DNA of 64,000 bases from Chloroflexota bacterium (GTDB lineage: Bacteria; Chloroflexota; Dehalococcoidia; Tepidiformales; Tepidiformaceae): the NCBI GenBank assembly GCA_016234445.1, contig JACRBT010000017.1:62001-126000 (forward strand). Reading direction: 5' to 3'. Positions 7,532-62,752 of the stretch are shown piece after piece. Numbering within the stretch: the stretch's first letter is position 1; every line of letters starts with the position of its first letter. The translations under genes were made by a program, and so were the position numbers. Under the pieces are notes generated by a model. It was not told where the DNA came from, did no database searches, and worked only from the letters and a program-made list of their open reading frames with translations.

Positions 7532-8078
7532 CGGAGCGGCCGGCCCTCCACGGCGGGTGGCGATCGTCGGGAGCGGCGGTGCGGGCAAATCCACGCTCGC
7601 GCGCGAACTCGGCGAACGCCTCGGCCTGCCCGTGATTCACCTCGACAAGGAGCACTGGCTGCCCGGCTGGGTCGAGCCGCCGGCGGACGAATGGGCCGCG
7701 CGGGTTGAGGCACTGACCGCCGGCGACCGCTGGGTCATCGACGGCAACTACGGCGGGACGATGGAGGCGCGCTTCGAAGCCGCTGACACGATCGTCTTCC
7801 TCGACTTCTCCCGCTGGCTTTGCACCTTCCGCGTCATCCGCAGGGCGACGCTGCATCGCCGCCGGCCGCGCCCCGACATGGCGCCCGGCTGCGACGAGCG
7901 GCTCGACCCCGACTTCATCCGCTGGGTCTGGACCTACCCGGACCGGAGCCGTCCGCCCGTGCTGGCCGCGCTCGAACGCTACCGCGAGGGCCGGCGGATC
8001 GCCGTCCTTCGCAACACGCGGGAGGTGCGCGCGTGGGTCGGGACCCTCACCCCCCGGCCCCCTCTCCTCGCTTCGTGA
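7524..8078 (+). CDS. P-loop NTPase, topology-modulation (FlaR)/adenylate-kinase-like
   Basis: This 184-residue protein has a Walker A (GSGGAGKSTLARELGE) and the DKEHWLPGWVEPP / WVIDGNYGGTM segments typical of the small 'DNA topology modulation protein FlaR-like' kinases. The LID region is Arg-rich (RRATLHRRRPRP). Its start overlaps the queG stop by 8 bases, which indicates translational coupling. The last dozen residues (TLTPRPPLLAS) are encoded by a dispersed palindromic repeat, so the native C-terminus has been replaced or extended by a repeat insertion. The substrate is unknown. Confidence 0.75.
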   Translation: MPDGAAGPPRRVAIVGSGGAGKSTLARELGERLGLPVIHLDKEHWLPGWVEPPADEWAARVEALTAGDRWVIDGNYGGTMEARFEAADTIVFLDFSRWLCTFRVIRRATLHRRRPRPDMAPGCDERLDPDFIRWVWTYPDRSRPPVLAALERYREGRRIAVLRNTREVRAWVGTLTPRPPLLAS

Positions 8079-8094
8079 GGAGAGGGGGAGTGAG
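8044..8094. repeat. dispersed palindromic repeat, copy 1
   Basis: This is a 51-base element running CCCTCAC....GTGAG with an inner perfect 12-bp stem (CCCCCTCTCCTC / GAGGAGAGGGGG) around a short loop. It overlaps the 3' end of the kinase gene and supplies its stop codon. Near-identical copies occur at 17259-17309, 17425-17475 and 18614-18664. Confidence 0.8.
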
Positions 8095-8113
8095 CGCCGT
8101 AGCGCTCGGATCT

Positions 8114-8135
8114 CAGTGACGAGAGGGGGAGTGAG
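8114..8135. repeat. partial copy of the palindromic repeat
   Basis: Only the right arm is present (CAGTGACGAGAGGGGGAGTG and two more bases), 20 bases downstream of copy 1. This looks like a decayed or partly duplicated element. Confidence 0.6.
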
Positions 8136-8208
8136 CTTCTGGCGGGGTGACAGGGCGGCGCCGGGTGGGGGCGTTTCGCCTACAATCGCACTGCGCGGAG
8201 GGACTGGC

Positions 8209-9963: not shown

Positions 9964-11019
9964 ATGCTTCGCATCGGCCTCGTTGGCGCCCAGTTCATCG
10001 GCAACCTCTACATGCACGCCCTCAAGCAGGTGCAGGGTGCAGAGGTCGTGGCGATCGCGTCGCCGAACACGGCGGCTGATTTCGCCGCCCGTTGGGGCAT
10101 CGCCGCCCACTACAAGGACTATCGCTCGATGATCGAGGATTGCCCCCTCGACGCGGTCGCCATCGCCACCCCCAACGACCTCCACTACGACATCTGCCTG
10201 GCCGCGGCGGACGCCGGGAAGCACGTCCTCTGCGAAAAGCCGCTCGCGCTCAGCCTGGACGAGGCGAGCCAGATGATCGCCGCCTGCGAGCGAGCCGGGG
10301 TCGTCCTGATGTACGCGGAGAACCTGCTCTTCGTCCCCATGTACAACCGCCTCCGCGACCTCGCCCGGAAGGGGAACGTGGGCGAGCCGTTCCTGGTGAA
10401 GCAGGCGCAGTGCCACGGCGGGCCCTATTCGCCCTGGTTCTGGGACGTCGACCGGGCGGGTGGCGGCGTCCTCCTCGACATGGGCTGCCACAGCATCCAC
10501 GCGATCTGCTGGGCGATGGGCGACTGGCCCGAGGCGGTCACCGCGACCCTCGGGCGCTATGCCCACGCCGAAAAGACGCTCGCCGAAGACCACGCAACGG
10601 TAATGCTCCACTTCTCCGGGAACCGCCTCGGGATCGCCGAGAATTCGTGGGCCATGCCCGGCGGCAACGACTACCTGGAGGTCTATGGGCCGAAGGGCCG
10701 GCTGACGGCGAACCTCGAACGCGGGCCCGCGATCAGCATGTACCGCGCCCCCGGCGACGAAACCGCGCTCAACGCCTCCACGCGCGCCGGCTGGCAGTAC
10801 CCCCTCTACGAAGAGGCCTGGCAATTTGGCTTCCCCCAGGAACTCCAGCACTTCGTCGAGGTGGTCGCGGGGCGCGAGGAACTGCGATCGAGCGGGGCAG
10901 ACGGCCGCCGCGTCCTGGAGATCATCTGCGCCGCCTATGAGTCGGCCCGCACCGGCGCGCGGGTTGCCCTGCCCTTCGCCAGTGACCGCGAGAAGCCCGT
11001 CGACCACTGGTTTTCCTAG
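9964..11019 (+). CDS. Gfo/Idh/MocA-family oxidoreductase
   Basis: This 351-residue NAD(P)-dependent oxidoreductase starts directly with the Rossmann fold (LRIGLVGAQFIGNLYMHAL) and carries the family motif CEKPLALSLDEA near residue 95. The catalytic region is WFWDVDRAGGGVLLDMGCHSIHAI, where the D-x3-G-x3-D..H arrangement supports an active dehydrogenase of sugars or cyclitols. The C-terminal codons lie inside a 45-base direct repeat whose second copy lies beyond the adjacent peptidase gene. The substrate is unknown. Confidence 0.85.
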   Translation: MLRIGLVGAQFIGNLYMHALKQVQGAEVVAIASPNTAADFAARWGIAAHYKDYRSMIEDCPLDAVAIATPNDLHYDICLAAADAGKHVLCEKPLALSLDEASQMIAACERAGVVLMYAENLLFVPMYNRLRDLARKGNVGEPFLVKQAQCHGGPYSPWFWDVDRAGGGVLLDMGCHSIHAICWAMGDWPEAVTATLGRYAHAEKTLAEDHATVMLHFSGNRLGIAENSWAMPGGNDYLEVYGPKGRLTANLERGPAISMYRAPGDETALNASTRAGWQYPLYEEAWQFGFPQELQHFVEVVAGREELRSSGADGRRVLEIICAAYESARTGARVALPFASDREKPVDHWFS

Positions 11020-11025
11020 GCGGGC
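10981..11025 (+). repeat. 45-bp direct repeat, left copy (inside Gfo/Idh 3' end)
   Basis: This copy matches 12352-12396 at 43 of 45 bases. It encodes the C-terminus SDREKPVDHWFS, the stop codon and five further bases. Both differences between copies are synonymous serine-codon changes (AGT/AGC, TCC/TCG). Confidence 0.9.
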
Positions 11026-11031
11026 CGGAGC

Positions 11032-12324
11032 TTAGCGGAGCCGCAGCGTGGGGTCACCGAGCACCACGGCGCTGGCGAAGAGGAACTCGCGGATGTTCGC
11101 CCAGCCGGGGAGCAGTGGCACGTTCACGTGATCGACGATGGCCTGGCCGAAGCTCTTGTTGACGCTCATGCTCGTAGCGACGTTGTGGCCGAAGAAGCCG
11201 TTCGTGTTGTTGCCCATCCCGCCGGAGTCGTTCGTCGTGCCCTTCGCCACGAGCACGGTGCTGGTTGGGCTGTAGAGCACCGACGACAGGAAGTTGTCGG
11301 AGTGGTCGAGGTCGCCGGTCGCGCAGCCATTGCTCCAGAGGAAGACGGTCTTCACGGGCGTGGTTTCGACCTTCTGGATGGTGAGCTGGCCGCTGGCGCC
11401 CCAGTAGCCGTGGGCGTCGAGGTCGGTGAAGTCGGCCACGCCGGCGGCGAGGTCGGCGTAGCCCATGGCAGGCGAGAGGCCCGCGGGTGGGCTGTCGAAG
11501 TAGATGCGAGCGCCGGGACTGGTCGAGAACGGCGTCCATGCGTACAGGCCGGTCCGCAAGGCGGCGAGGATCTGGTCGCTTTCGGCGATCGTGGTGGCTT
11601 TGAGATGCTCGTCGACCTGAAGGAAGGCTCGCGGAAGCGTGTAGCCACCAGTGCGGTAGCTGTGGTTCTTCGCCAAGAAGCGGTTGAGTGCGTCGATCGT
11701 GGCGCTGGTGTTGCCCTTGTACAGGGGTAGCACCCCGATCCAGATCTCCCAGTCGACGTTGCCGGTGTGCTGGTCGAAGGAGTACGGATGGCTTCCGGGC
11801 GACTGGTAGGAAGGGGAGGTTGAGAACACCCCGTCCAGGTCGGCGTAGTACTGGAAGCTGATCACCTCCTCGGAGGTCGATGGGATGGATGGGTTCGCCG
11901 AGATCAGCGTCACCCACTGGTAGGCGTGTGGGATGTTTCCGATGAGGATCGCTCCGCGGAGGTTGTTGCCGGTGCGGGCGCGGAGGTCTGTGAGGTAGCC
12001 CCGCACTTCGGCCGGGTTCGCGAAGTCGGCACGGCGTTCGAAGACAGTGAAGCCATCGGCACAGAGGTCGAGTTCGAACTGCCTGAGGCCGGGCCGGACC
12101 GACGAGGAGAGCGCCGGGTCGACGAGCAGGGCGACGACCGGAGCCGCGGCATGGCACGCCTCGAACTCCGCGGCGGCAACGGCGTTATCCCGGGCAACCT
12201 GGGGGACTACGAGGCGGTGGGTGAGTGCGGGGGACGCGCCGCCGGCGGGCGACCATCCACCCCTCATGGCAACAGCAGCCGATGCCATGAGGAGAATCGG
12301 CGCGATGAGGGACCACCGGGACAT
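11032..12324 (-). CDS. secreted C25 (gingipain-like) cysteine peptidase homologue
   Basis: This 430-residue protein has an N-terminal signal-type segment (residues 1-20: SLIAPILLMASAAVA). The body matches the caspase-fold C25 layout: an early strand GAILIGNIPHAYQ, a candidate catalytic His in DLDAHGYWGAS, a candidate catalytic Cys in WSNGCATGDLDHSDNF, and the domain end VLGDPTLRLR. It lacks the Ig-like and sorting domains of gingipains. The ATG at 12324 is chosen because it starts the signal peptide. The gene is antisense to its neighbours and lies between 45-bp direct repeats, so it looks like an inserted cargo gene. Activity is inferred, not shown. Confidence 0.7.
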   Translation of the reverse strand: MSRWSLIAPILLMASAAVAMRGGWSPAGGASPALTHRLVVPQVARDNAVAAAEFEACHAAAPVVALLVDPALSSSVRPGLRQFELDLCADGFTVFERRADFANPAEVRGYLTDLRARTGNNLRGAILIGNIPHAYQWVTLISANPSIPSTSEEVISFQYYADLDGVFSTSPSYQSPGSHPYSFDQHTGNVDWEIWIGVLPLYKGNTSATIDALNRFLAKNHSYRTGGYTLPRAFLQVDEHLKATTIAESDQILAALRTGLYAWTPFSTSPGARIYFDSPPAGLSPAMGYADLAAGVADFTDLDAHGYWGASGQLTIQKVETTPVKTVFLWSNGCATGDLDHSDNFLSSVLYSPTSTVLVAKGTTNDSGGMGNNTNGFFGHNVATSMSVNKSFGQAIVDHVNVPLLPGWANIREFLFASAVVLGDPTLRLR

Positions 12325-12351
12325 GCGGGGATTGTACGCTCGTAGTTCCAC

Positions 12352-12396
12352 AGCGACCGCGAGAAGCCCGTCGACCACTGGTTTTCGTAGGCGGGC
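12352..12396 (+). repeat. 45-bp direct repeat, right copy (orphan Gfo/Idh gene end)
   Basis: This copy still reads SDREKPVDHWFS-stop in frame but has no gene body: an in-frame TAG lies two codons upstream. It marks the right edge of the segment holding the C25-like peptidase gene. Confidence 0.9.
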
Positions 12397-12480: not shown

Positions 12481-13743
12481 ATGCCGTCGATCGAAGAAAC
12501 CTACGTTGCCCGGACGCCCGGGTCGGCGGAGATTGGGCCGCGGGCCGAGCGCGTCATGCCCGCGGGAGAGACGCGAGCCGCCGGCTACCATCGCCCCTAC
12601 CCCCTGACCCTCACCCACGGCGCGGGCGCCCGTGTCTGGGATGTCGACGGCAACGAATACGTCGACCTGACCTACAACTTCACCAGCCTCGTCCACGGCC
12701 ACGGCTATGCGCCGATCGTCGAGGCGGCGGAGAAGCAGATTCGCGGCGGCACCGCCTGGCCCGCCCGCAACCCCCACCAGGTCGAACTCGCCGAGATGCT
12801 GGTCGACCGCGTCCAGTCGGTGGAGATGGTGCGCTTCTGCAACTCCGGGACCGAGGCGGCGATGCTGGCGATGCAGGTCGCGCGGCATGCCACCGGCCGC
12901 AAGAAGGTCCTGATGGCCCGCTACGGCTACCACGGCAGCCACGAGGTCTTCGAACACGGCTTCATGGCCGACACCATGGGCGAATGGGACCACACGCTCA
13001 CGGCCGAGTTTGGCAACGCGGAGAGCTTCGAGGCTGTCCTCAGTGAGCAGGGCGACGAGATCGCGGCGGTCTTCCTCGAAAGCGTCATGGGCTCCGCCGG
13101 CATCGTCGAAGGGTCGAAGGCGTTCTTCGACCGCGTCATCGCCGCCACCCACGCGGCCGGGGCGATCTTCGTCCTGGACGAGGTGATCACCTTCCGGATG
13201 TCGACGGGCGGGCAGCAGAAGGTGCTGGGGATAACGCCCGACATCACGATGTTTGGCAAGCTGATCGGCGGCGGCTTCCCGGTCGGCGCCATCGGCGGCC
13301 GGCGCGACCTCATGCGCATCCTCGACCCGCGCGAGGGCAAGCTCTTCCACTCCGGCACGTTCAACGGCAACCCGGTGACCACGGCGGCCGGCGTCGTTTC
13401 CGTGCGCGACCTCACCTCCGAGAAGATCGCGATCATGCACGGCCAGGCGGAGGAACTCGAGGCGGCGTTCCGGAAGTCGGCGGCGAAACGGAACCTGCCC
13501 TTCAGCGTGCGGCGGTCGGGTTCGCTGATGAACCTCTACTTCACGGAGGAACCGCCGCGGGCGAACCTCACCCGCCCCGACGGCCGGATGATGGGCAAGT
13601 TCCACCTCGCCGGGATGAACCACGGCCTCTACTTCGCCTCGCGGGGGATGATCGTCCTCGCCACGGTCCTCACCGATACCGACATCGCCGAGATCGCCCA
13701 GCGTGCCGACGCCGCGATGGCCGACGTCGCCGCCGAGGGCTGA
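12481..13743 (+). CDS. class III aminotransferase, glutamate-1-semialdehyde aminomutase-like
   Basis: This 420-residue PLP enzyme carries fold-type I class III motifs: WDVDGNEYVDLTYNF near residue 55, CNSGTEAAMLAMQVAR at about residue 120, IFVLDEVITFRMSTGG at about residue 225, and the PLP lysine in ITMFGKLIGGGFPVGAIGG. The order resembles HemL, but no haem biosynthesis gene is nearby, and many such genes act on other beta- or omega-amino acids. The 3' end lies in a 22-bp direct repeat shared with the far side of the next three genes. Confidence 0.8.
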   Translation: MPSIEETYVARTPGSAEIGPRAERVMPAGETRAAGYHRPYPLTLTHGAGARVWDVDGNEYVDLTYNFTSLVHGHGYAPIVEAAEKQIRGGTAWPARNPHQVELAEMLVDRVQSVEMVRFCNSGTEAAMLAMQVARHATGRKKVLMARYGYHGSHEVFEHGFMADTMGEWDHTLTAEFGNAESFEAVLSEQGDEIAAVFLESVMGSAGIVEGSKAFFDRVIAATHAAGAIFVLDEVITFRMSTGGQQKVLGITPDITMFGKLIGGGFPVGAIGGRRDLMRILDPREGKLFHSGTFNGNPVTTAAGVVSVRDLTSEKIAIMHGQAEELEAAFRKSAAKRNLPFSVRRSGSLMNLYFTEEPPRANLTRPDGRMMGKFHLAGMNHGLYFASRGMIVLATVLTDTDIAEIAQRADAAMADVAAEG

Positions 13744-13744
13744 C
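13723..13744 (+). repeat. 22-bp direct repeat, left copy (aminotransferase 3' end)
   Basis: An exact 22-base match to 15525-15546. It encodes the last residues DVAAEG and the TGA stop plus one base. It bounds the lower-GC three-gene cassette on the left. Confidence 0.85.
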
Positions 13745-13844
13745 AAAGGTCGCGCGCCTCCGGCCGCGGCCAAGAGCCTCCAAGTTGCCTGCGGCCCCCG
13801 GATAGGTGCTACCATGGCAGCCCGCTACGGAAAGGGGCACTGCA

Positions 13845-14372
13845 GTGGTGTTTGTGTTCGGCCGGGTGCCCACGCAGTTCAAGACCGCTGAGTGCCGAGG
13901 CGACTTTTCGTACCACTACGGACTCCGGTCGGACACCCTACCGGCGGCGAAGGCTGCGGAGCAACGTCGACTGTTCGACGGCCCCGGGCGAATCCTCGTC
14001 CGGGAAAGCTTGCAGTACAACTGCGCAGGGCTCGTGTTTGCTGCCCGTCGCGGCTGGCTGACTGAAGACCAGCAGAGCGAACAGAAGGAGGGCGCCGCCG
14101 ACTTTGGCAGGGTCGTGCTCAGAATCCTTGAGGCTGATGGACTTCGTCGTCGAGGCGGCGGCGAGCCCGTCAGGGAGGGGGATATCGTGCTGTACGCCCA
14201 CGAGGGTACTATTGAACATGTGGGGTGTGTGATATCGAGATTGGACCCCGTCTTTCGGAAGCCGATGGTCTTGAGTAAGTGGGGCGACGCAGGCGAGTAC
14301 CTCCACGATATTGACAACGTGGCGGCCCACCTTGGTGCCGTGCACAGCGTCTGGACTTATGAGGATGCTTGA
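13845..14372 (+). CDS. papain-like (NlpC/P60-like) Cys/His protein, cassette gene A
   Basis: This 175-residue cytoplasmic-looking protein starts at a GTG with an excellent GGAAAGGGG site eight bases upstream. It has a candidate Cys-His pair laid out as in papain-like NlpC/P60 or CHAP hydrolases: C60 at the start of a helix (YNCAGLVFAARRGWL) and H125 on a strand after the typical 'GDIVLY' step (REGDIVLYAHEGTIEHVGCVI). A third-position residue may lie in VLSKWGDAGEYLHDIDN. There is no signal peptide, so an intracellular effector, deamidase or transglutaminase-like role is as likely as cell-wall cleavage. It is the first of three tightly spaced genes of lower GC between 22-bp repeats. The exact family is not recognised. 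Confidence 0.65.
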   Translation: MVFVFGRVPTQFKTAECRGDFSYHYGLRSDTLPAAKAAEQRRLFDGPGRILVRESLQYNCAGLVFAARRGWLTEDQQSEQKEGAADFGRVVLRILEADGLRRRGGGEPVREGDIVLYAHEGTIEHVGCVISRLDPVFRKPMVLSKWGDAGEYLHDIDNVAAHLGAVHSVWTYEDA

Positions 14373-14374
14373 AA

Positions 14375-15013
14375 ATGAACGCTGAGGAGCAGTTCGCAGA
14401 AGTGGAAAGTCCGGCGTTTGCCGCGCTGGCCACAGCGGTCAGCGGCCCGGCCGCGTTTGTGAGGCAGCTGTCGCGTCTCGGACCTTACCAGCGCCTTCTT
14501 GCGTTCCTGACGGCCAAGGACGAGAGGAGCTTGCTTGGACACCAACATGCCCTAGCGCTACGGGTCGAGTCGATTGCCCGAGCGGAGCCGGAACCGGGAC
14601 ACGAGCATGAGCTGGATGCCTGCCTAGCCGCCTACATCGTGGCGCTCCATCAGGTAGATAGCATCTGGCTGGCTGCCGCCCGCTCTTGGGCAAGCGCCGC
14701 CCGAGGTGCTTGGTGGACCAGGCGGGTACTCGACCACATACAACGTTCTGAGGCAGGCTCCGCAGAGCTCTCCATCACCACCGGATCCACCATGAACCGT
14801 GCCCCGCGCGTGACCACGCTCTCCATCGCACGGTCGGCCTACGTTCAGAGGGCGACGGTCGAGCCCCAAGTGAGCATCACCCCGCGATCGACGACGGAGA
14901 GTTCGAGCTCGTTGACGTCGGGAGTCAGCTATGCCGGCCTGCCGGTCGCCCGCAGAACGGATCCGAGCGAGACGGAAACGGTGACGCCTCGTGTCCTGAG
15001 TGAGGTTGCCTAG
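14375..15013 (+). CDS. hypothetical protein, cassette gene B
   Basis: This 212-residue protein has no family I recognise. Residues 1-125 are predicted mostly helical and Ala/Leu-rich (AYIVALHQVDSIWLAAARSWASAARGAWW). Residues 126-212 are Ser/Thr-rich and probably flexible or beta-rich (TTESSSSLTSGVSYAG). It has one cysteine and no membrane segment. The ATG at 14375 lies two bases after the stop of gene A, with GAGG upstream, and the stop overlaps the GTG of gene C by one base. It is therefore translationally coupled on both sides and likely works with A and C. Confidence 0.6.
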   Translation: MNAEEQFAEVESPAFAALATAVSGPAAFVRQLSRLGPYQRLLAFLTAKDERSLLGHQHALALRVESIARAEPEPGHEHELDACLAAYIVALHQVDSIWLAAARSWASAARGAWWTRRVLDHIQRSEAGSAELSITTGSTMNRAPRVTTLSIARSAYVQRATVEPQVSITPRSTTESSSSLTSGVSYAGLPVARRTDPSETETVTPRVLSEVA

Positions 15014-15498
15014 TGAGACTTGTTTGGGCGGTGTTATGCACATCCTCCTCGGTGGACTCGGTCTCCAACAACATAAGCCTGTTTCAGGCGTTGGAGCAGG
15101 TGCAGATGGTGCTCGCGTCGCCCGCTCAAGATGCTGGGAACGGCGACCGGCGGATCGCCCCTCTGCAGTTCCAGTTGGTTGCACTCTGGGCGAGGACCAA
15201 CCGCGATGAGGCGGAGCGAGGCGACTTCCGCATCGTCATCGCGGCAGAGAATGAAGACACCGTCGGCGTGACGCCACCGATAGGCGTGGACCTTACTTCC
15301 CACCCCCGTTCGCGCAACATCGTGAACCTAACGTCCGTTCCCCTCCCCGATAATGCGGATTCACAGGTCTTCGAGTACCGGGTCGAGGAGCACGTTGGGG
15401 ACACATGGGCACTCAGGGGTTCGATCCCCCTCGATGTCAGCGTCACCGTGGACCAGACGGCTGCTGGTGGTGAGATCCCGACGCCGGTGGTGGTCTAG
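15013..15498 (+). CDS. hypothetical beta-rich protein, cassette gene C
   Basis: This 161-residue protein starts at a GTG that shares a base with the gene B stop. The opening resembles short bacterial proteins of the DUF6941 kind (a strand, a Cys, a VDS..NN.SLF..LEQVQ step, then alternating strands); this is a weak resemblance from memory. The remainder is beta-strand-like (LQFQLVALWARTN, GDFRIVIAAENED, QVFEYRVEE, LDVSVTV). It has no signal peptide. Codon use is less GC-biased than in flanking genes. Confidence 0.6.
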   Translation: MRLVWAVLCTSSSVDSVSNNISLFQALEQVQMVLASPAQDAGNGDRRIAPLQFQLVALWARTNRDEAERGDFRIVIAAENEDTVGVTPPIGVDLTSHPRSRNIVNLTSVPLPDNADSQVFEYRVEEHVGDTWALRGSIPLDVSVTVDQTAAGGEIPTPVVV

Positions 15499-15524
15499 GC
15501 ATCTCGGGAAACCGCGGAGCCCGG

Positions 15525-15546
15525 GACGTCGCCGCCGAGGGCTGAC
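15525..15546 (+). repeat. 22-bp direct repeat, right copy
   Basis: An exact copy of 13723-13744 with no reading frame of its own here. It marks the right boundary of the three-gene cassette, 41 bases before the ChrB-like gene. Confidence 0.85.
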
Positions 15547-15587: not shown

Positions 15588-16016
15588 ATGAAGTACGTCA
15601 CCCGCAAGCACGTGAAGGTCGACCTGGTCGCCTGCCCGTGGCTGATCACCCGCTTCGTCGACCCCCAGGCGGAGTTCCTCTTCGTCGAACCGGGCGAGGT
15701 GATGGCCGTCGCCGCGCGCGAGGAGGCGATCCCCTTCGACGTCGCCGGCGTCGAGCTCGGCCACCAGGGGGCGAACTGCTCCTTCGACGCCGTCATCGCG
15801 AAGTACAGGATCGACGCTCCCGGGATCGACCGGCTGGCGCTCATCGTCCGCGGCGCCGACACGGACGCGAAGGACCTCGCACCCGAAGCGCGGGGCCTCG
15901 AAGCGATCGCCGAGGGCTTCCGCGCCGTCGGGACCGACGACCACGACATCCTCCGCCTGGAGTTCCCGGTGTACGACGCGCTCTACGCCTACTGCCGCGC
16001 GCGGGCGGGGCGCTGA
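15588..16016 (+). CDS. ChrB-domain protein (chromate-resistance type)
   Basis: This 142-residue protein matches the C-terminal ChrB domain: MKYVTRKHVKVDLVACPWLI, then RFVDPQAEFLFV, FDVAGVELGHQGANCSFDAVI and LALIVRGADTD. In chromate operons ChrB is a chromate-sensing regulator; the domain also occurs alone, as here, without the N-terminal DNA-binding part and without a ChrA transporter. Conserved C16, H59 and C64 could form a metal or oxyanion site. It is coupled to the following MFS gene by a 3-base overlap. A role in chromate or oxyanion tolerance is inferred. Confidence 0.8.
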   Translation: MKYVTRKHVKVDLVACPWLITRFVDPQAEFLFVEPGEVMAVAAREEAIPFDVAGVELGHQGANCSFDAVIAKYRIDAPGIDRLALIVRGADTDAKDLAPEARGLEAIAEGFRAVGTDDHDILRLEFPVYDALYAYCRARAGR

Positions 16017-17248
16017 CGAAGCTCGCGCCCCTCCTGCCGCCTTCGGCCGCGCCGGACGCCGGGCGGCTGCTGACGGCGCGCGCCCTCCGGGGGTTCGCCG
16101 ACGGTTTCGTCAGCGTGCTTCTCGCCAGCTACCTCGACGGGCTTGGGTTCTCGGCGGTCCAGATCGGCGCGATCATCACGACGACTCTCCTGGGGTCGGC
16201 AGCCCTCACGCTCGGGGTCGGGCTCGTGAGCAACCGCATCCACCCCCTGCGCGTCCTTTTCGGCGCGGCCGCCCTGATGTTTGCAACCGGCCTCGGCTTC
16301 GCGGCGGTGACGGACTTCTGGCCGCTCCTCGTCGTCGCCTTCGCGGGGACCTTGAACCCCTCGGCGGGCGACGTCAGCGTCTTCCTCCCGGTCGAACAGG
16401 CGCTCCTTTCGGAGAAGGTGTCCGGCAACGACCGGACGGCGCTCTTCGCCCGCTACAACCTGGGCGGCGCCTTCGCCGGGGCGCTGGGGGCGCTCGCGAG
16501 TGGCATTCCCGCCGTCCTCGCCCGGACGAACGACTGGGACCGCACGGACGCCGAACGCTGGGGGTTCGTGCTCTATGCCGCGGTGGCGCTGGTGATCGCC
16601 GTGGTCTACCTGGGCGTCCAGCCAGCGGTTCGCCGGGGCGCGGGAGAGGCGCGCCGGAGCGTCCTTGCCCGCTCCCGGAGGGTGGTGCTACACCTCGCCG
16701 CGCTCTTCAGCCTCGACTCCTTTGGCGGCGGGTTCGTGGTCCAGTCGCTGCTGGTCCTCTGGCTGTTCAAGCGCTTCGACACCTCCACGGCGACGGTCGC
16801 GACGGTGTTCTTCGCCGCCGGGCTGCTGACCGCGCTCTCGCAACTGGCGTCGTCGTGGCTGGCCGGCCGGATCGGCCTCATCCGGACGATGGTCTTCACG
16901 CACCTCCCGGCGAACGGGTTCCTCATCGTCGCGGCGCTGATGCCGACGGCGCCGCTCGCCATCTTCTTCCTGCTGCTGCGGATGGCGCTTTCGCAGATGG
17001 ACGTCCCGGCGCGGCAGTCGTTCGTGATGGCGGTTGTGCCGCCAGAGGAGCGGGCGGCGGCGGCGAGCGTCACCAACGTCCCCCGGAGCCTCGCCTCGGC
17101 GCTCTCGCCGTTGCTGGCGGGAGCGATGCTGAGCATGTCGTCGTTCGGCTGGCCGCTGATCGCCGGTGGCGTCCTCAAGATCGTCTATGACCTGCTCTTG
17201 CTGCTGCAGTTCCGGGCGGTGCAGCTACCGGAAGATGGAGCGCCTTAG
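16013..17248 (+). CDS. MFS transporter (probable CTG start)
   Basis: This protein of about 411 residues has some 12 hydrophobic segments in two six-helix halves, beginning LRGFADGFVSVLLASYLDGLGF, with mid-loop LQPAVRRGAGEARRSVLARSRR. No ATG, GTG or TTG stands at the right place: the first membrane helix begins near 16090 and the only plausible codon that couples to the ChrB stop is CTG at 16013 (CTGA overlap). This start is inferred. The substrate is unknown; drug or anion efflux is plausible given the ChrB-domain partner. The last codons lie in a 165-bp tandem duplication. Confidence 0.75.
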   Translation: MTKLAPLLPPSAAPDAGRLLTARALRGFADGFVSVLLASYLDGLGFSAVQIGAIITTTLLGSAALTLGVGLVSNRIHPLRVLFGAAALMFATGLGFAAVTDFWPLLVVAFAGTLNPSAGDVSVFLPVEQALLSEKVSGNDRTALFARYNLGGAFAGALGALASGIPAVLARTNDWDRTDAERWGFVLYAAVALVIAVVYLGVQPAVRRGAGEARRSVLARSRRVVLHLAALFSLDSFGGGFVVQSLLVLWLFKRFDTSTATVATVFFAAGLLTALSQLASSWLAGRIGLIRTMVFTHLPANGFLIVAALMPTAPLAIFFLLLRMALSQMDVPARQSFVMAVVPPEERAAAASVTNVPRSLASALSPLLAGAMLSMSSFGWPLIAGGVLKIVYDLLLLLQFRAVQLPEDGAP

Positions 17249-17371
17249 GGGCGGGGGGCCCTCACCCCCCGGCCCCCTCTCCTCACGCAGTGAGGAGAGG
17301 GGGAGTGAGACGGGTAACACGGGGACAACTTTCTGTGGGAAGTACCAGGGTATGCCGGCGGCCTGGAGCAC
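17207..17371. repeat. 165-bp tandem duplication, unit 1
   Basis: This unit begins in the last codons of the MFS gene, contains palindromic repeat copy 2 and its tail, and ends in sequence homologous to the 3' end of the serine hydrolase gene (reverse strand VLQAAGIP). Unit 2 follows without a gap with about a dozen substitutions and one inserted base. Confidence 0.85.
17259..17309. repeat. dispersed palindromic repeat, copy 2
   Basis: Same architecture as copy 1. It continues into a conserved 3' tail ending ACAACTTTCTGTGGGAAGTA near 17325-17348, which is also seen in copies 3 and 4 but not in copy 1. Confidence 0.8.
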
Positions 17372-17537
17372 CAGTTCCGGGCGGTGCAGCTGCCGGAAGA
17401 CGGAGCTCCCTAGTGGCGGGGGGCCCCTCACCCCCCGGCCCCCTCTCCTCACGGAGTGAGGAGAGGGGGAGTGAGACGGGTAACACGGGGACAACTTTCT
17501 GTGGGGAGTATCAGGGTATGCCGGCGGCCTGGAGCAC
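17372..17537. repeat. 165-bp tandem duplication, unit 2
   Basis: This unit opens with a pseudo-tail of the MFS gene (encoding FRAVQLPED then a stop) and ends with the true 3' end of the serine hydrolase gene. Both convergent gene ends therefore exist twice in tandem. Confidence 0.85.
17425..17475. repeat. dispersed palindromic repeat, copy 3
   Basis: Nearly identical to copy 2 (loop ACGGAG against ACGCAG). Its tail runs directly into the stop codon of the serine hydrolase gene at 17511-17513. Confidence 0.8.
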
Positions 17538-18554: not shown

Positions 18555-18613
18555 GGCCGGGGACCCTCCGGGCGCCAAGTCTAGCACTCGCTTGCGCAAC
18601 TTAGAGATCGGCC

Positions 18614-54121: not shown

Positions 54122-55020
54122 GCGAACGGTTCGAAGTCGTCTTTCTCGGCACCGGCAGCCCGCTGCCGAGCGCCGACCGCTGCGGCGCCGGCAACGTCAT
54201 CGTTGCGGGCGACACCAACGTCCTCGTCGACTGCGGGTGGGGGGCGGCCCGGCGGCTGATCCCCTCGGGTGTGCGGCCGCCGTCCATCGACGTCGCCATC
54301 TTCACCCACATGCACACCGACCACATGACGGACGTCCCGGACTTCCTCTTCCAGCGCTGGGTCGGCGGGGCGACTGTCCCCCTCCGCGTCTACGGCCCGG
54401 AAGGCACGCAGGAGATGATCGACGGCTTCCTCCTCGCCCTTCGCCGCGACATCGGCTTCCGCCTGGCCCACCACGGCGACAAGCTCAGCCCCGACGGCAT
54501 CAAGGTCGAGGTGACCGAGCTGCCGACGACGAAGGCCCCGGAGCAGTTCCTCGACCTTGGCGGCCTCCGCTTCGAAGCCTTCGAGGTCGACCACTTCCCG
54601 GTGGTGCCGGCGTTTGGCTACCGTGTCCGCTTCGACGGCCGATCCGCGGTGCTCTCCGGCGACACGTCGTTCTGCGAGACCCTCGCGCACGCTTCCGAAG
54701 GGGCGGACATGCTCGTCTGCGAGGCCATGAGCGCCCCGCTGATGGAGCAGCTGATCAGCATGCTCAAGCTCACCGGGAGGAACCGCGAGGCCGGGCTCAT
54801 GGGGGACGTCCCTTCGTACCACATCGACACCGGTGCGATCGCGAAGCTGGCGAGGGACGCGGGTGTCGGCGAAGTCGTCCTTTCGCATATCATTCCGCCT
54901 ATCCCGAACGACGCCGCCCAGGAGGCGGTTTTCATCGCCGGGATGAACGACGTCTATCCCGGCCCCGTCCGCATTGCCCGCGACATGCAGCGCATCCCCG
55001 TGACGAAGCGAGGTTCCTGA
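54118..55020 (+). CDS. MBL-fold metallo-hydrolase (RNase Z-like)
   Basis: This 300-residue metallo-beta-lactamase-fold enzyme has the HxHxDH motif THMHTDHMTD, an opening FLGTGSPLPSADRCGAGN as in RNase Z and arylsulfatase-type hydrolases, LSGDTSFCE (Asp ligand) and SHIIPP (His ligand). It is probably a small-molecule hydrolase and not tRNase Z. The start is a GTG overlapping the dehalogenase stop, so it is in the same operon. Confidence 0.85.
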   Translation: MSERFEVVFLGTGSPLPSADRCGAGNVIVAGDTNVLVDCGWGAARRLIPSGVRPPSIDVAIFTHMHTDHMTDVPDFLFQRWVGGATVPLRVYGPEGTQEMIDGFLLALRRDIGFRLAHHGDKLSPDGIKVEVTELPTTKAPEQFLDLGGLRFEAFEVDHFPVVPAFGYRVRFDGRSAVLSGDTSFCETLAHASEGADMLVCEAMSAPLMEQLISMLKLTGRNREAGLMGDVPSYHIDTGAIAKLARDAGVGEVVLSHIIPPIPNDAAQEAVFIAGMNDVYPGPVRIARDMQRIPVTKRGS

Positions 55021-55028
55021 TGCCCGGC
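55010..55028 (+). repeat. 19-bp direct repeat, left copy
   Basis: GAGGTTCCTGATGCCCGGC covers the stop of the MBL gene and the start codon of the PPOX gene. An exact copy at 55476-55494 covers the start of the DinB gene. Confidence 0.8.
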
Positions 55029-55475
55029 CCGTCCTGGGATTTCGAAAGTGACCCCGTTGTGCAGGAACTCCTGGCGAGCCCGACGCTGATGCGTCTCGCC
55101 TACGTCGGGGCCAACCTCCAGCCCCACGTCGTCCCCATCTGGTACCGCTACGGCGATGGGGAGTTTGTTGTCGTCACCGGGCCGAAGGCGGACAAGGTGC
55201 GCCACATCAGCGAGCGCCCTCGTGTCTCCTTCACGATCGACTCCGACCGGCCGCCCTACAAGGTGCTGCTGGTCGACGGCCTCGCCACGGTCGAGCCGGT
55301 GGAAGGGATGGCGCCCGAATACCCGGAAATTGTCCGCAAGTTCCTCGGGCCCGGGGCCGATGGCTACCTCGGGCGGATGGAGGGCCGGGTCAAGCGCCAG
55401 GTCCGGATCCGGATCGCCCCGACCTCCGTCCGCGTCCTCGACTTCGTCAAGCGCACACCGCGCAGCCTGTCCTGA
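55020..55475 (+). CDS. PPOX-class F420-dependent oxidoreductase-like protein
   Basis: This 151-residue split-barrel protein has HVVPIWYRYGDGEFVVVTGPKADKVRHI and PRVSFTID, typical of pyridoxamine-oxidase-like proteins, many of which use F420. The ATG overlaps the MBL stop by one base. It lies exactly between two 19-bp direct repeats, which suggests it was inserted between the MBL and DinB genes. The substrate is unknown. Confidence 0.8.
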   Translation: MPGPSWDFESDPVVQELLASPTLMRLAYVGANLQPHVVPIWYRYGDGEFVVVTGPKADKVRHISERPRVSFTIDSDRPPYKVLLVDGLATVEPVEGMAPEYPEIVRKFLGPGADGYLGRMEGRVKRQVRIRIAPTSVRVLDFVKRTPRSLS

Positions 55476-55494
55476 GAGGTTCCTGATGCCCGGC
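55476..55494 (+). repeat. 19-bp direct repeat, right copy
   Basis: An exact copy of 55010-55028; here it supplies the ribosome-binding region and the first three codons (MPG) of the DinB gene. Confidence 0.8.
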
Positions 55495-62138: not shown

Positions 62139-62192
62139 CGCCGTGAGCGAAGAACGCCAGGCAACCTGCGAAGCACTCCAGGCGCGAATCGC
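62139..62192 (+). repeat. 54-bp direct repeat, left copy (5' end of GAF gene)
   Basis: This copy matches 62699-62752 at 51 of 54 bases. It includes the start codon and first 16 codons of the GAF-domain gene (encoding MSEERQATCEALQARIA), but the rest of the gene is missing, so it is a detached gene start. Confidence 0.9.
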
Positions 62193-62244: not shown

Positions 62245-62403
62245 TCAGACGCCGGCCGTTTCGAAGCCGAGCGAGGCCGCCGCGGTGGCGACGACATCGG
62301 TTTCGGAGGCGACGGCGGCTTCCCACAAGTCCGGCCGCTCCAGCATCGGGCCATCTCCGATCAGCCGGCGGAGGAGACAGCTGGCGTCAAGGTAGGAGGT
62401 CAC
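62245..62403 (-). pseudogene. vapC: internally deleted VapC-like PIN toxin
   Basis: Translated on the minus strand from GTG 62403, this 52-residue frame opens with the PIN-domain start YLDASCLLRRLIGDG (first acidic residue in LDAS) and ends with ATAAASLGFETAGV, which looks like a PIN C-terminus. A VapC toxin has about 130 residues with three or four acidic active-site residues; here the middle is missing. It overlaps the antitoxin gene end as in intact vapBC operons. Nuclease activity is not expected. Confidence 0.6.
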
Positions 62404-62665
62404 GGTCCTCGGTCACCTCGCGCAGTACGTCGAGGATGTCGGTCCCGTCGGAGAGGCGCACTCTCCGAATCTCGATGTCGCGCATGTGCCTGGTCGCCCG
62501 CCGCATGCCGGGGAACGCGCGTTCGATGGCCGCGAGGGGGTCGCACGGCGACAGCTCGGCGACGGGCTCGCCGTCGCGTGCGATCAGGAGGCGTTCGCCC
62601 GCCTGGACGCGCGCCAGCACCTCGCGGAGGTGGGCTTCGAGTTCCTCGATCGGGATCGTCGTCAT
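62387..62665 (-). CDS. Phd/YefM-type (VapB-like) antitoxin
   Basis: This 92-residue protein begins ITTIPIEELEAHLREVLARV-like and has GERLLIARDGEPVAELSP, the prevent-host-death fold that binds DNA and the toxin. The toxin gene that overlaps its stop is internally deleted, so this is an orphaned antitoxin. The pair lies between 54-bp repeats copied from the start of the adjacent GAF gene. Confidence 0.75.
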   Translation of the reverse strand: MTTIPIEELEAHLREVLARVQAGERLLIARDGEPVAELSPCDPLAAIERAFPGMRRATRHMRDIEIRRVRLSDGTDILDVLREVTEDRDLLP

Positions 62666-62698: not shown

Positions 62699-62752
62699 CG
62701 CCGTGAGCGAAGAACGCCAGCCCACCTACGAAGCACTCCAGGCGCGAATCGC
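62699..62752 (+). repeat. 54-bp direct repeat, right copy (intact GAF gene start)
   Basis: This copy opens the full GAF-domain gene. It matches 62139-62192 with three differences, two of which change residues (P to A and Y to C in the left copy). Confidence 0.9.

Follow-up and report, generated by a model that had tools for sequence, protein, structure and literature searches.

The locus raises the question of how a gene for a secreted peptidase came to lie between the end of an intact oxidoreductase gene and a second copy of that same end. The window, i.e. the whole stretch of 64,000 nucleotides that was analyzed, lies on the 288-kb contig C5. The features at the insertion site are:

9964-11019, plus strand: Gfo/Idh/MocA oxidoreductase gene (gfo), the host gene (PF01408 7e-29, PF22725, PF02894)
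10980-11025, plus strand: target duplication copy 1, across the gfo stop codon
11026-12350, no strand assigned: inserted segment of 1325 bp, with limits set by the two 46-nt copies
11032-12324, minus strand: putative C25-like secreted cysteine peptidase with predicted dyad His305/Cys334 (homologs, PF01364 in family members, gingipain R fold, conserved dyad)
12351-12396, plus strand: target duplication copy 2, an orphan gfo end with the ancestral AGC
12481-13743, plus strand: class-III aminotransferase (PF00202 1e-52), the presumed original downstream neighbour of gfo and host gene of a second insertion

The duplicated part of gfo comprised its last 40 nt including the stop codon. The 7 nt past the stop, GGCGGGC, were present in both copies, and the repeat thus extends beyond the coding sequence. 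The copies were identical at 44 of 46 nt (96%) with a longest exact run of 32 nt, the second copy being located 1371 nt downstream of the first. When the 288-kb contig was simulated six times with an order-5 Markov model, no exact pair at distances up to 6 kb exceeded 19 nt; the 46-nt duplication is not due to chance. With multi-copy repeats left out, inverted pairs of at least 20 nt were not found on the contig. The 27-nt core of the repeat was unique to this locus among 243 loci compared. Adjacency of gfo and the aminotransferase was absent in all relatives examined, which included none of the same genus. Because no relative has the aminotransferase beside gfo, we infer the empty site, which would be a single gfo end running directly into GTAGGCCCTGAGCGG and the aminotransferase.

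The insert held a single gene, convergent with gfo, and the two reading frames lie tail-to-tail on opposite strands with stop codons 12 bp apart. From the ATG at 12324 the N-terminus resembles a signal peptide in sequence, and LACN lipobox-like motifs were present in both close homologs of the protein. Homologs of the peptidase were found in none of 60 relatives, and none of the neighbourhoods of gfo orthologs (13 family genomes, 57-79%) contained it. The insertion of the peptidase at the gfo end is real, as a preliminary description of the locus had stated; the description was also right that the peptidase is antisense to its host gene and, judged from its signal-peptide-like N-terminus, secreted. 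Just two weak partial matches were obtained in 400 genomes of the phylum. An alignment-based scan of 84,980 genomes resulted in 17 relatives, namely two Anaerolineae MAG proteins (L213 and L214) at 54-56% and 15 distant ones, and a scan of genome contigs with the single peptidase sequence as query gave no match. The gene would have come from another lineage, perhaps an Anaerolineae-like one. A plasmid or phage origin of the insert was rejected, tblastn having given no match.

The peptidase itself had no match in Pfam (up to E 10), NCBIfam or PADLOC, and the cut-off of the C25 profile was not reached. PF01364 (Peptidase_C25) was however matched by 9 of 16 aligned family members, the best at 4.9e-12. 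An AlphaFold2 model built from the 16-sequence alignment (pLDDT 78, pTM 0.81) replaced a prediction from the single sequence, which was useless (pLDDT 37). The best PDB matches of the model in Foldseek were gingipain R 4ief and 1cvr (E 3e-10, TM 0.56), and in the alignment His305 and Cys334 fall in the columns where most homologs have His and Cys as well. Matches of the peptidase to designed beta-propeller PDB sequences represented one weak match repeated and were set aside. By its homologs, modelled fold and predicted dyad the protein is C25-like, outside the curated profile, and the earlier label was upheld by this route though the protein itself has no Pfam match. It shares with the gingipain-type C25 peptidases the fold, the His/Cys dyad and a signal-peptide-like N-terminus as predicted, but differs from them in lacking a direct Pfam match and in being small and single-domain.

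The gfo end was not the only duplicated gene boundary on the contig. Five further inserts on C5, three of them within the window, were located between direct duplications of 19-54 nt across a stop or a start:

13723-13744, plus strand: second event, copy 1 of a 22-nt, 100% identical duplication, the aminotransferase gene end
13745-15524, no strand assigned: second insert of 1.78 kb with three small genes, 13806-14372 (DUF7689/CHAP-like, weak), 14369-15013 and 15013-15498
15525-15546, plus strand: second event, copy 2, with a ChrB-like/MFS gene pair downstream
55010-55028, plus strand: third event, copy 1 of a 19-nt duplication over the overlapping stop/start TGATG
55020-55475, plus strand: third cargo, a PNPOx-like protein of 151 aa (PF01243 4.5e-11)
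55476-55494, plus strand: third event, copy 2, which covers the downstream gene's start
62139-62192, plus strand: fourth event, copy 1 of a 54-nt duplication, an orphan start of a 1909-aa gene
62245-62665, minus strand: fourth cargo, a Phd/YefM antitoxin (62387-62665; PF02604 1.4e-7) with a 52-aa reading frame downstream (62245-62403)
62699-62752, plus strand: fourth event, copy 2, the real start of the 1909-aa gene (GTG at 62703)
contig positions 183478 and 184279: 50-nt duplication over a cupredoxin end
contig positions 205178 and 206017: 31-nt duplication over a rhodanese end, enclosing a histidine phosphatase

The six protein-gene duplications on C5 thus measured 19, 22, 31, 46, 50 and 54 nt, with 94-100% identity around inserts of 0.45-1.8 kb. 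Apart from the gfo end, three of the five were identical and two had non-synonymous differences (Pro/Ala and Tyr/Cys between the 54-nt gene-start copies, Leu/Met and Glu/Gly between the cupredoxin ends). The cargoes were unrelated: a peptidase, an uncharacterised cluster, a PNPOx-like protein, an antitoxin and a histidine phosphatase. Neither a transposase nor an integrase was found in the cargo reading frames examined, no terminal motif was shared among the inspected C5 insert junctions, and PADLOC assigned no defence family to the cargoes. In the second insert, the reading frame at 14369-15013 had a single weak partial match in 60 relatives. Downstream of this insert, a ChrB-like gene and, after it, a gene for an MFS transporter (15588-17248) possibly form a chromate-response pair. 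A separate 166-bp tandem duplication (17207-17537, 94%) takes in a gene end together with a palindromic repeat, CCCCTCACCCCCCGGCCCCCTCTCC...GGAGAGGGGGAGTGAG, which recurs at 18613 and partly at 8075-8136.

The third event is the one for which an uninterrupted site could be observed. The PNPOx cargo was missing at the orthologous junction in four relatives (G022, G010, G012 and G019), and in G022 and G010 the flanking genes overlap directly. The G022 junction, AAGCGAGGCGCCTGATGCCCGGCACCGA, contains the duplicated stretch in a single copy with two bases different. A PNPOx homolog (83%) is present at the same junction in G002 without the repeat, so the junction may have received an insert on more than one occasion. 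The start codon of the PNPOx cargo gene is supplied by the target copy. In the fourth event, the 52-aa reading frame after the antitoxin had no Pfam match; it looks shortened and is possibly a truncated toxin. The native upstream region of the 1909-aa gene now lies beyond the far side of the antitoxin insert.

The duplication survey covered 1.08 Mb of this genome (G000) and, in three relatives, a further 1.2 Mb. Outside C5, the 0.79 Mb surveyed in this genome contained two cases at tRNA 3' ends and one unclear case:

C2:96816 and 98110: tRNA-Asp 3' end duplication, 72 nt, 90%, about 1 kb between (L174)
C20:53923 and 54957: tRNA-Gln 3' end duplication, 44 nt, 98%, about 1 kb between (L069)
C20:102980 and 104150: 38-nt duplication, ambiguous

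In the parts of the two tRNA-end cargoes that were scanned, the called genes included no integrase. A 120-nt pair at C2:410899/411653 was rejected as an insertion scar and is a decayed paralog. Boundary duplications of at least 20 nt were absent from G012 and G017 (0.8 Mb together). G022 (0.4 Mb) had one candidate, two minus-strand genes enclosed by a 48-nt duplication of 92% identity (C40:15827/18505, L193), the sole candidate outside this genome in the 1.2 Mb of the three relatives. As cases were sparse in the other surveyed DNA, the contrast rests mostly on contig C5. This genome encodes Ku (E 6.8e-51) and has two matches to an ATP-dependent ligase domain of LigD type. Neither Ku nor a LigD-type ligase was found in G012 and G017; in G022, whose genome is 89% complete, the ligase was present and Ku was not found. 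The relation between Ku/LigD and the scars is a correlation across four genomes.

The two copies of the gfo end differ by AGT/AGC and, in the codon before the stop, TCC/TCG (gene copy first); both are serine codons and both changes are silent. These differences, and an orphan copy whose reading continues to the same TAG, had been reported for copies of 45 nt (10981-11025 and 12352-12396) and were reproduced here. They had been read as a sign that coding selection had shaped each copy in a gene of its own before the two met, as if the insert had carried in its own version of the gene end. In the comparison with the gfo ends of relatives that had been proposed as a check, the serine codon of the first mismatch could be placed in 11 orthologs, and in all of them it is AGC, the state of the orphan. 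The orphan is therefore ancestral at this position and the AGT of the intact gene derived. At the second mismatch the orthologs do not align. Under neutral drift in this 12-codon stretch, the chance that both changes turn out silent is about 3-4%, but the value is much higher if one change sits in a gene still under selection. Since the polarity puts one change in the selected gene, the argument from two silent changes loses its force. The polarity fits drift in the gene copy, and a separately evolved gene end is not needed for the orphan. The second proposed check was for the same peptidase at other gene ends: the genes for L213 and L214 have no adjoining Gfo/Idh gene and no repeats around them. 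Nothing thus points to a donor that carried this gene end, and the peptidase as driver of mobility was rejected because its two closest homologs lack flanking repeats.

The locus is probably best explained as an insertion with long target duplication, in which linear foreign DNA was captured at a staggered, filled-in break over the gfo end, the further C5 inserts having arisen likewise. A double-strand break with nicks some 20-55 nt apart would have opened the gfo end; both break ends would have been filled in, and a linear fragment with the peptidase gene inserted between the two, so that each side kept the 46-nt target. The duplicated stretch spans the stop codon, so the host gfo would have remained intact and the insertion been tolerated. 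Two later substitutions would then have separated the copies. The peptidase would be passive cargo and not self-moving, and the same process may have produced at least five other C5 inserts. Capture of linear fragments is suggested over a self-mobile element by the variable duplication lengths, the unrelated targets and cargoes, the lack of a transposase or integrase in the examined reading frames, the lack of shared termini and the cargo ends that cut into genes (the PNPOx and antitoxin cargoes). A bias to gene 3' ends would be expected from selection alone, as a duplication across the stop leaves the host gene intact. Joining by Ku/LigD end joining is plausible from the gene content of the genome. 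Against this explanation stand the concentration of the protein-gene cases on C5, the L193 candidate in a genome where Ku was not found, and the G002 homolog, which complicates the PNPOx case.

Classical attachment sites include the 3' ends of genes and tRNAs, and att-site repeats are often imperfectly identical. The repeats could for this reason be the attL/attR of small integrative elements whose integrase was lost or acts in trans, and the tRNA-Gln and tRNA-Asp cases in this genome fit such site-specific integration, as does the restoration of a host gene 3' end by the repeat. We consider it unlikely. Six unrelated protein-gene targets with repeats of 19-54 nt would demand as many specificities, one duplication covers the start of a gene, insert ends fall inside genes, and the cargo reading frames examined contained no integrase family. 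The view of the preliminary description, in which a segment from a relative, holding the peptidase and that relative's version of the Gfo/Idh end, entered by recombination at the resident gene end through one-sided homology or as a circle, would account for two silent differences, and integration of a circle by short homology gives the same layout. It appears improbable, with gfo and the peptidase paired in no relative and beside no peptidase homolog, the ancestral codon of 11 orthologs retained in the orphan, and the other duplications of the genome either identical or non-synonymously different.

An assembly artefact, in which contigs of two strains were joined at a shared overlap, has to be considered for a 20-contig assembly with 2.5% contamination that was inspected as contigs. 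Overlaps of that kind are of a single length and fully identical, whereas the present duplications range from 19 to 54 nt at identities of 94-100%, and a homolog of the PNPOx insert occupies the same junction in another genome; this origin is very unlikely. Even less credence is given to a tandem duplication of gfo, or of the gfo end with the peptidase, followed by deletion. It would also leave a second gene end, but similarity breaks off sharply at either limit of the 46-nt stretch, other genes show the same layout, and a tandem gfo, which the preliminary description had named as the observation that would speak against its view, was found in none of the 13 orthologous neighbourhoods.

Insertion with long target duplication is said to have been first described by Nobusato et al. 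in 2000 for restriction-modification genes of Helicobacter pylori. To our knowledge Helicobacter is without Ku/LigD; end joining would then not be required and cannot be the only route. The Helicobacter pattern (PMC1643837, PMC3031569, PMC3874152, PMC4978471) resembles the present one in its gene-sized insert, the absence of a transposase, long direct duplications on both sides of the insert with a length varying between events, and an uninterrupted site in a relative (here the PNPOx case). The differences are duplications of 19-54 nt here compared to the order of 100 bp, cargoes that are not restriction-modification genes (a usual association and not a structural criterion), and a host of a different phylum with Ku and a LigD-type ligase. 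Integrative elements differ in their integrase and the present set in its many unrelated targets, variable length and gene-start target; insertion sequences and transposons differ in having a transposase, terminal inverted repeats and a short duplication of fixed length. Transposed Arabidopsis genes are similarly non-transposon genes at new sites with direct repeats derived from host sequence, for which recombination of excised circles has been discussed (Woodhouse et al. 2010, PMC2869330), but they are eukaryotic. The layout itself is already known; this set departs from it in length, cargo and host.

The interest of the locus lies in the repeated scar, with six boundary duplications on one contig. 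The scars point to an uncommon route of gene gain, and the gain of single genes without a recognisable mobile element is an open question in bacteria. The scar set, together with the empty site in relatives, makes this question testable, as length distribution, Ku/LigD dependence and cargo origin can be counted in other genomes. As a tentative generalization, some bacteria with Ku/LigD may capture gene-sized foreign fragments at long-overhang breaks, with survivors enriched at gene ends since the filled-in overhang rebuilds the stop. If true, this would be a transposase-free, self-sparing route of gene gain that leaves a readable scar.
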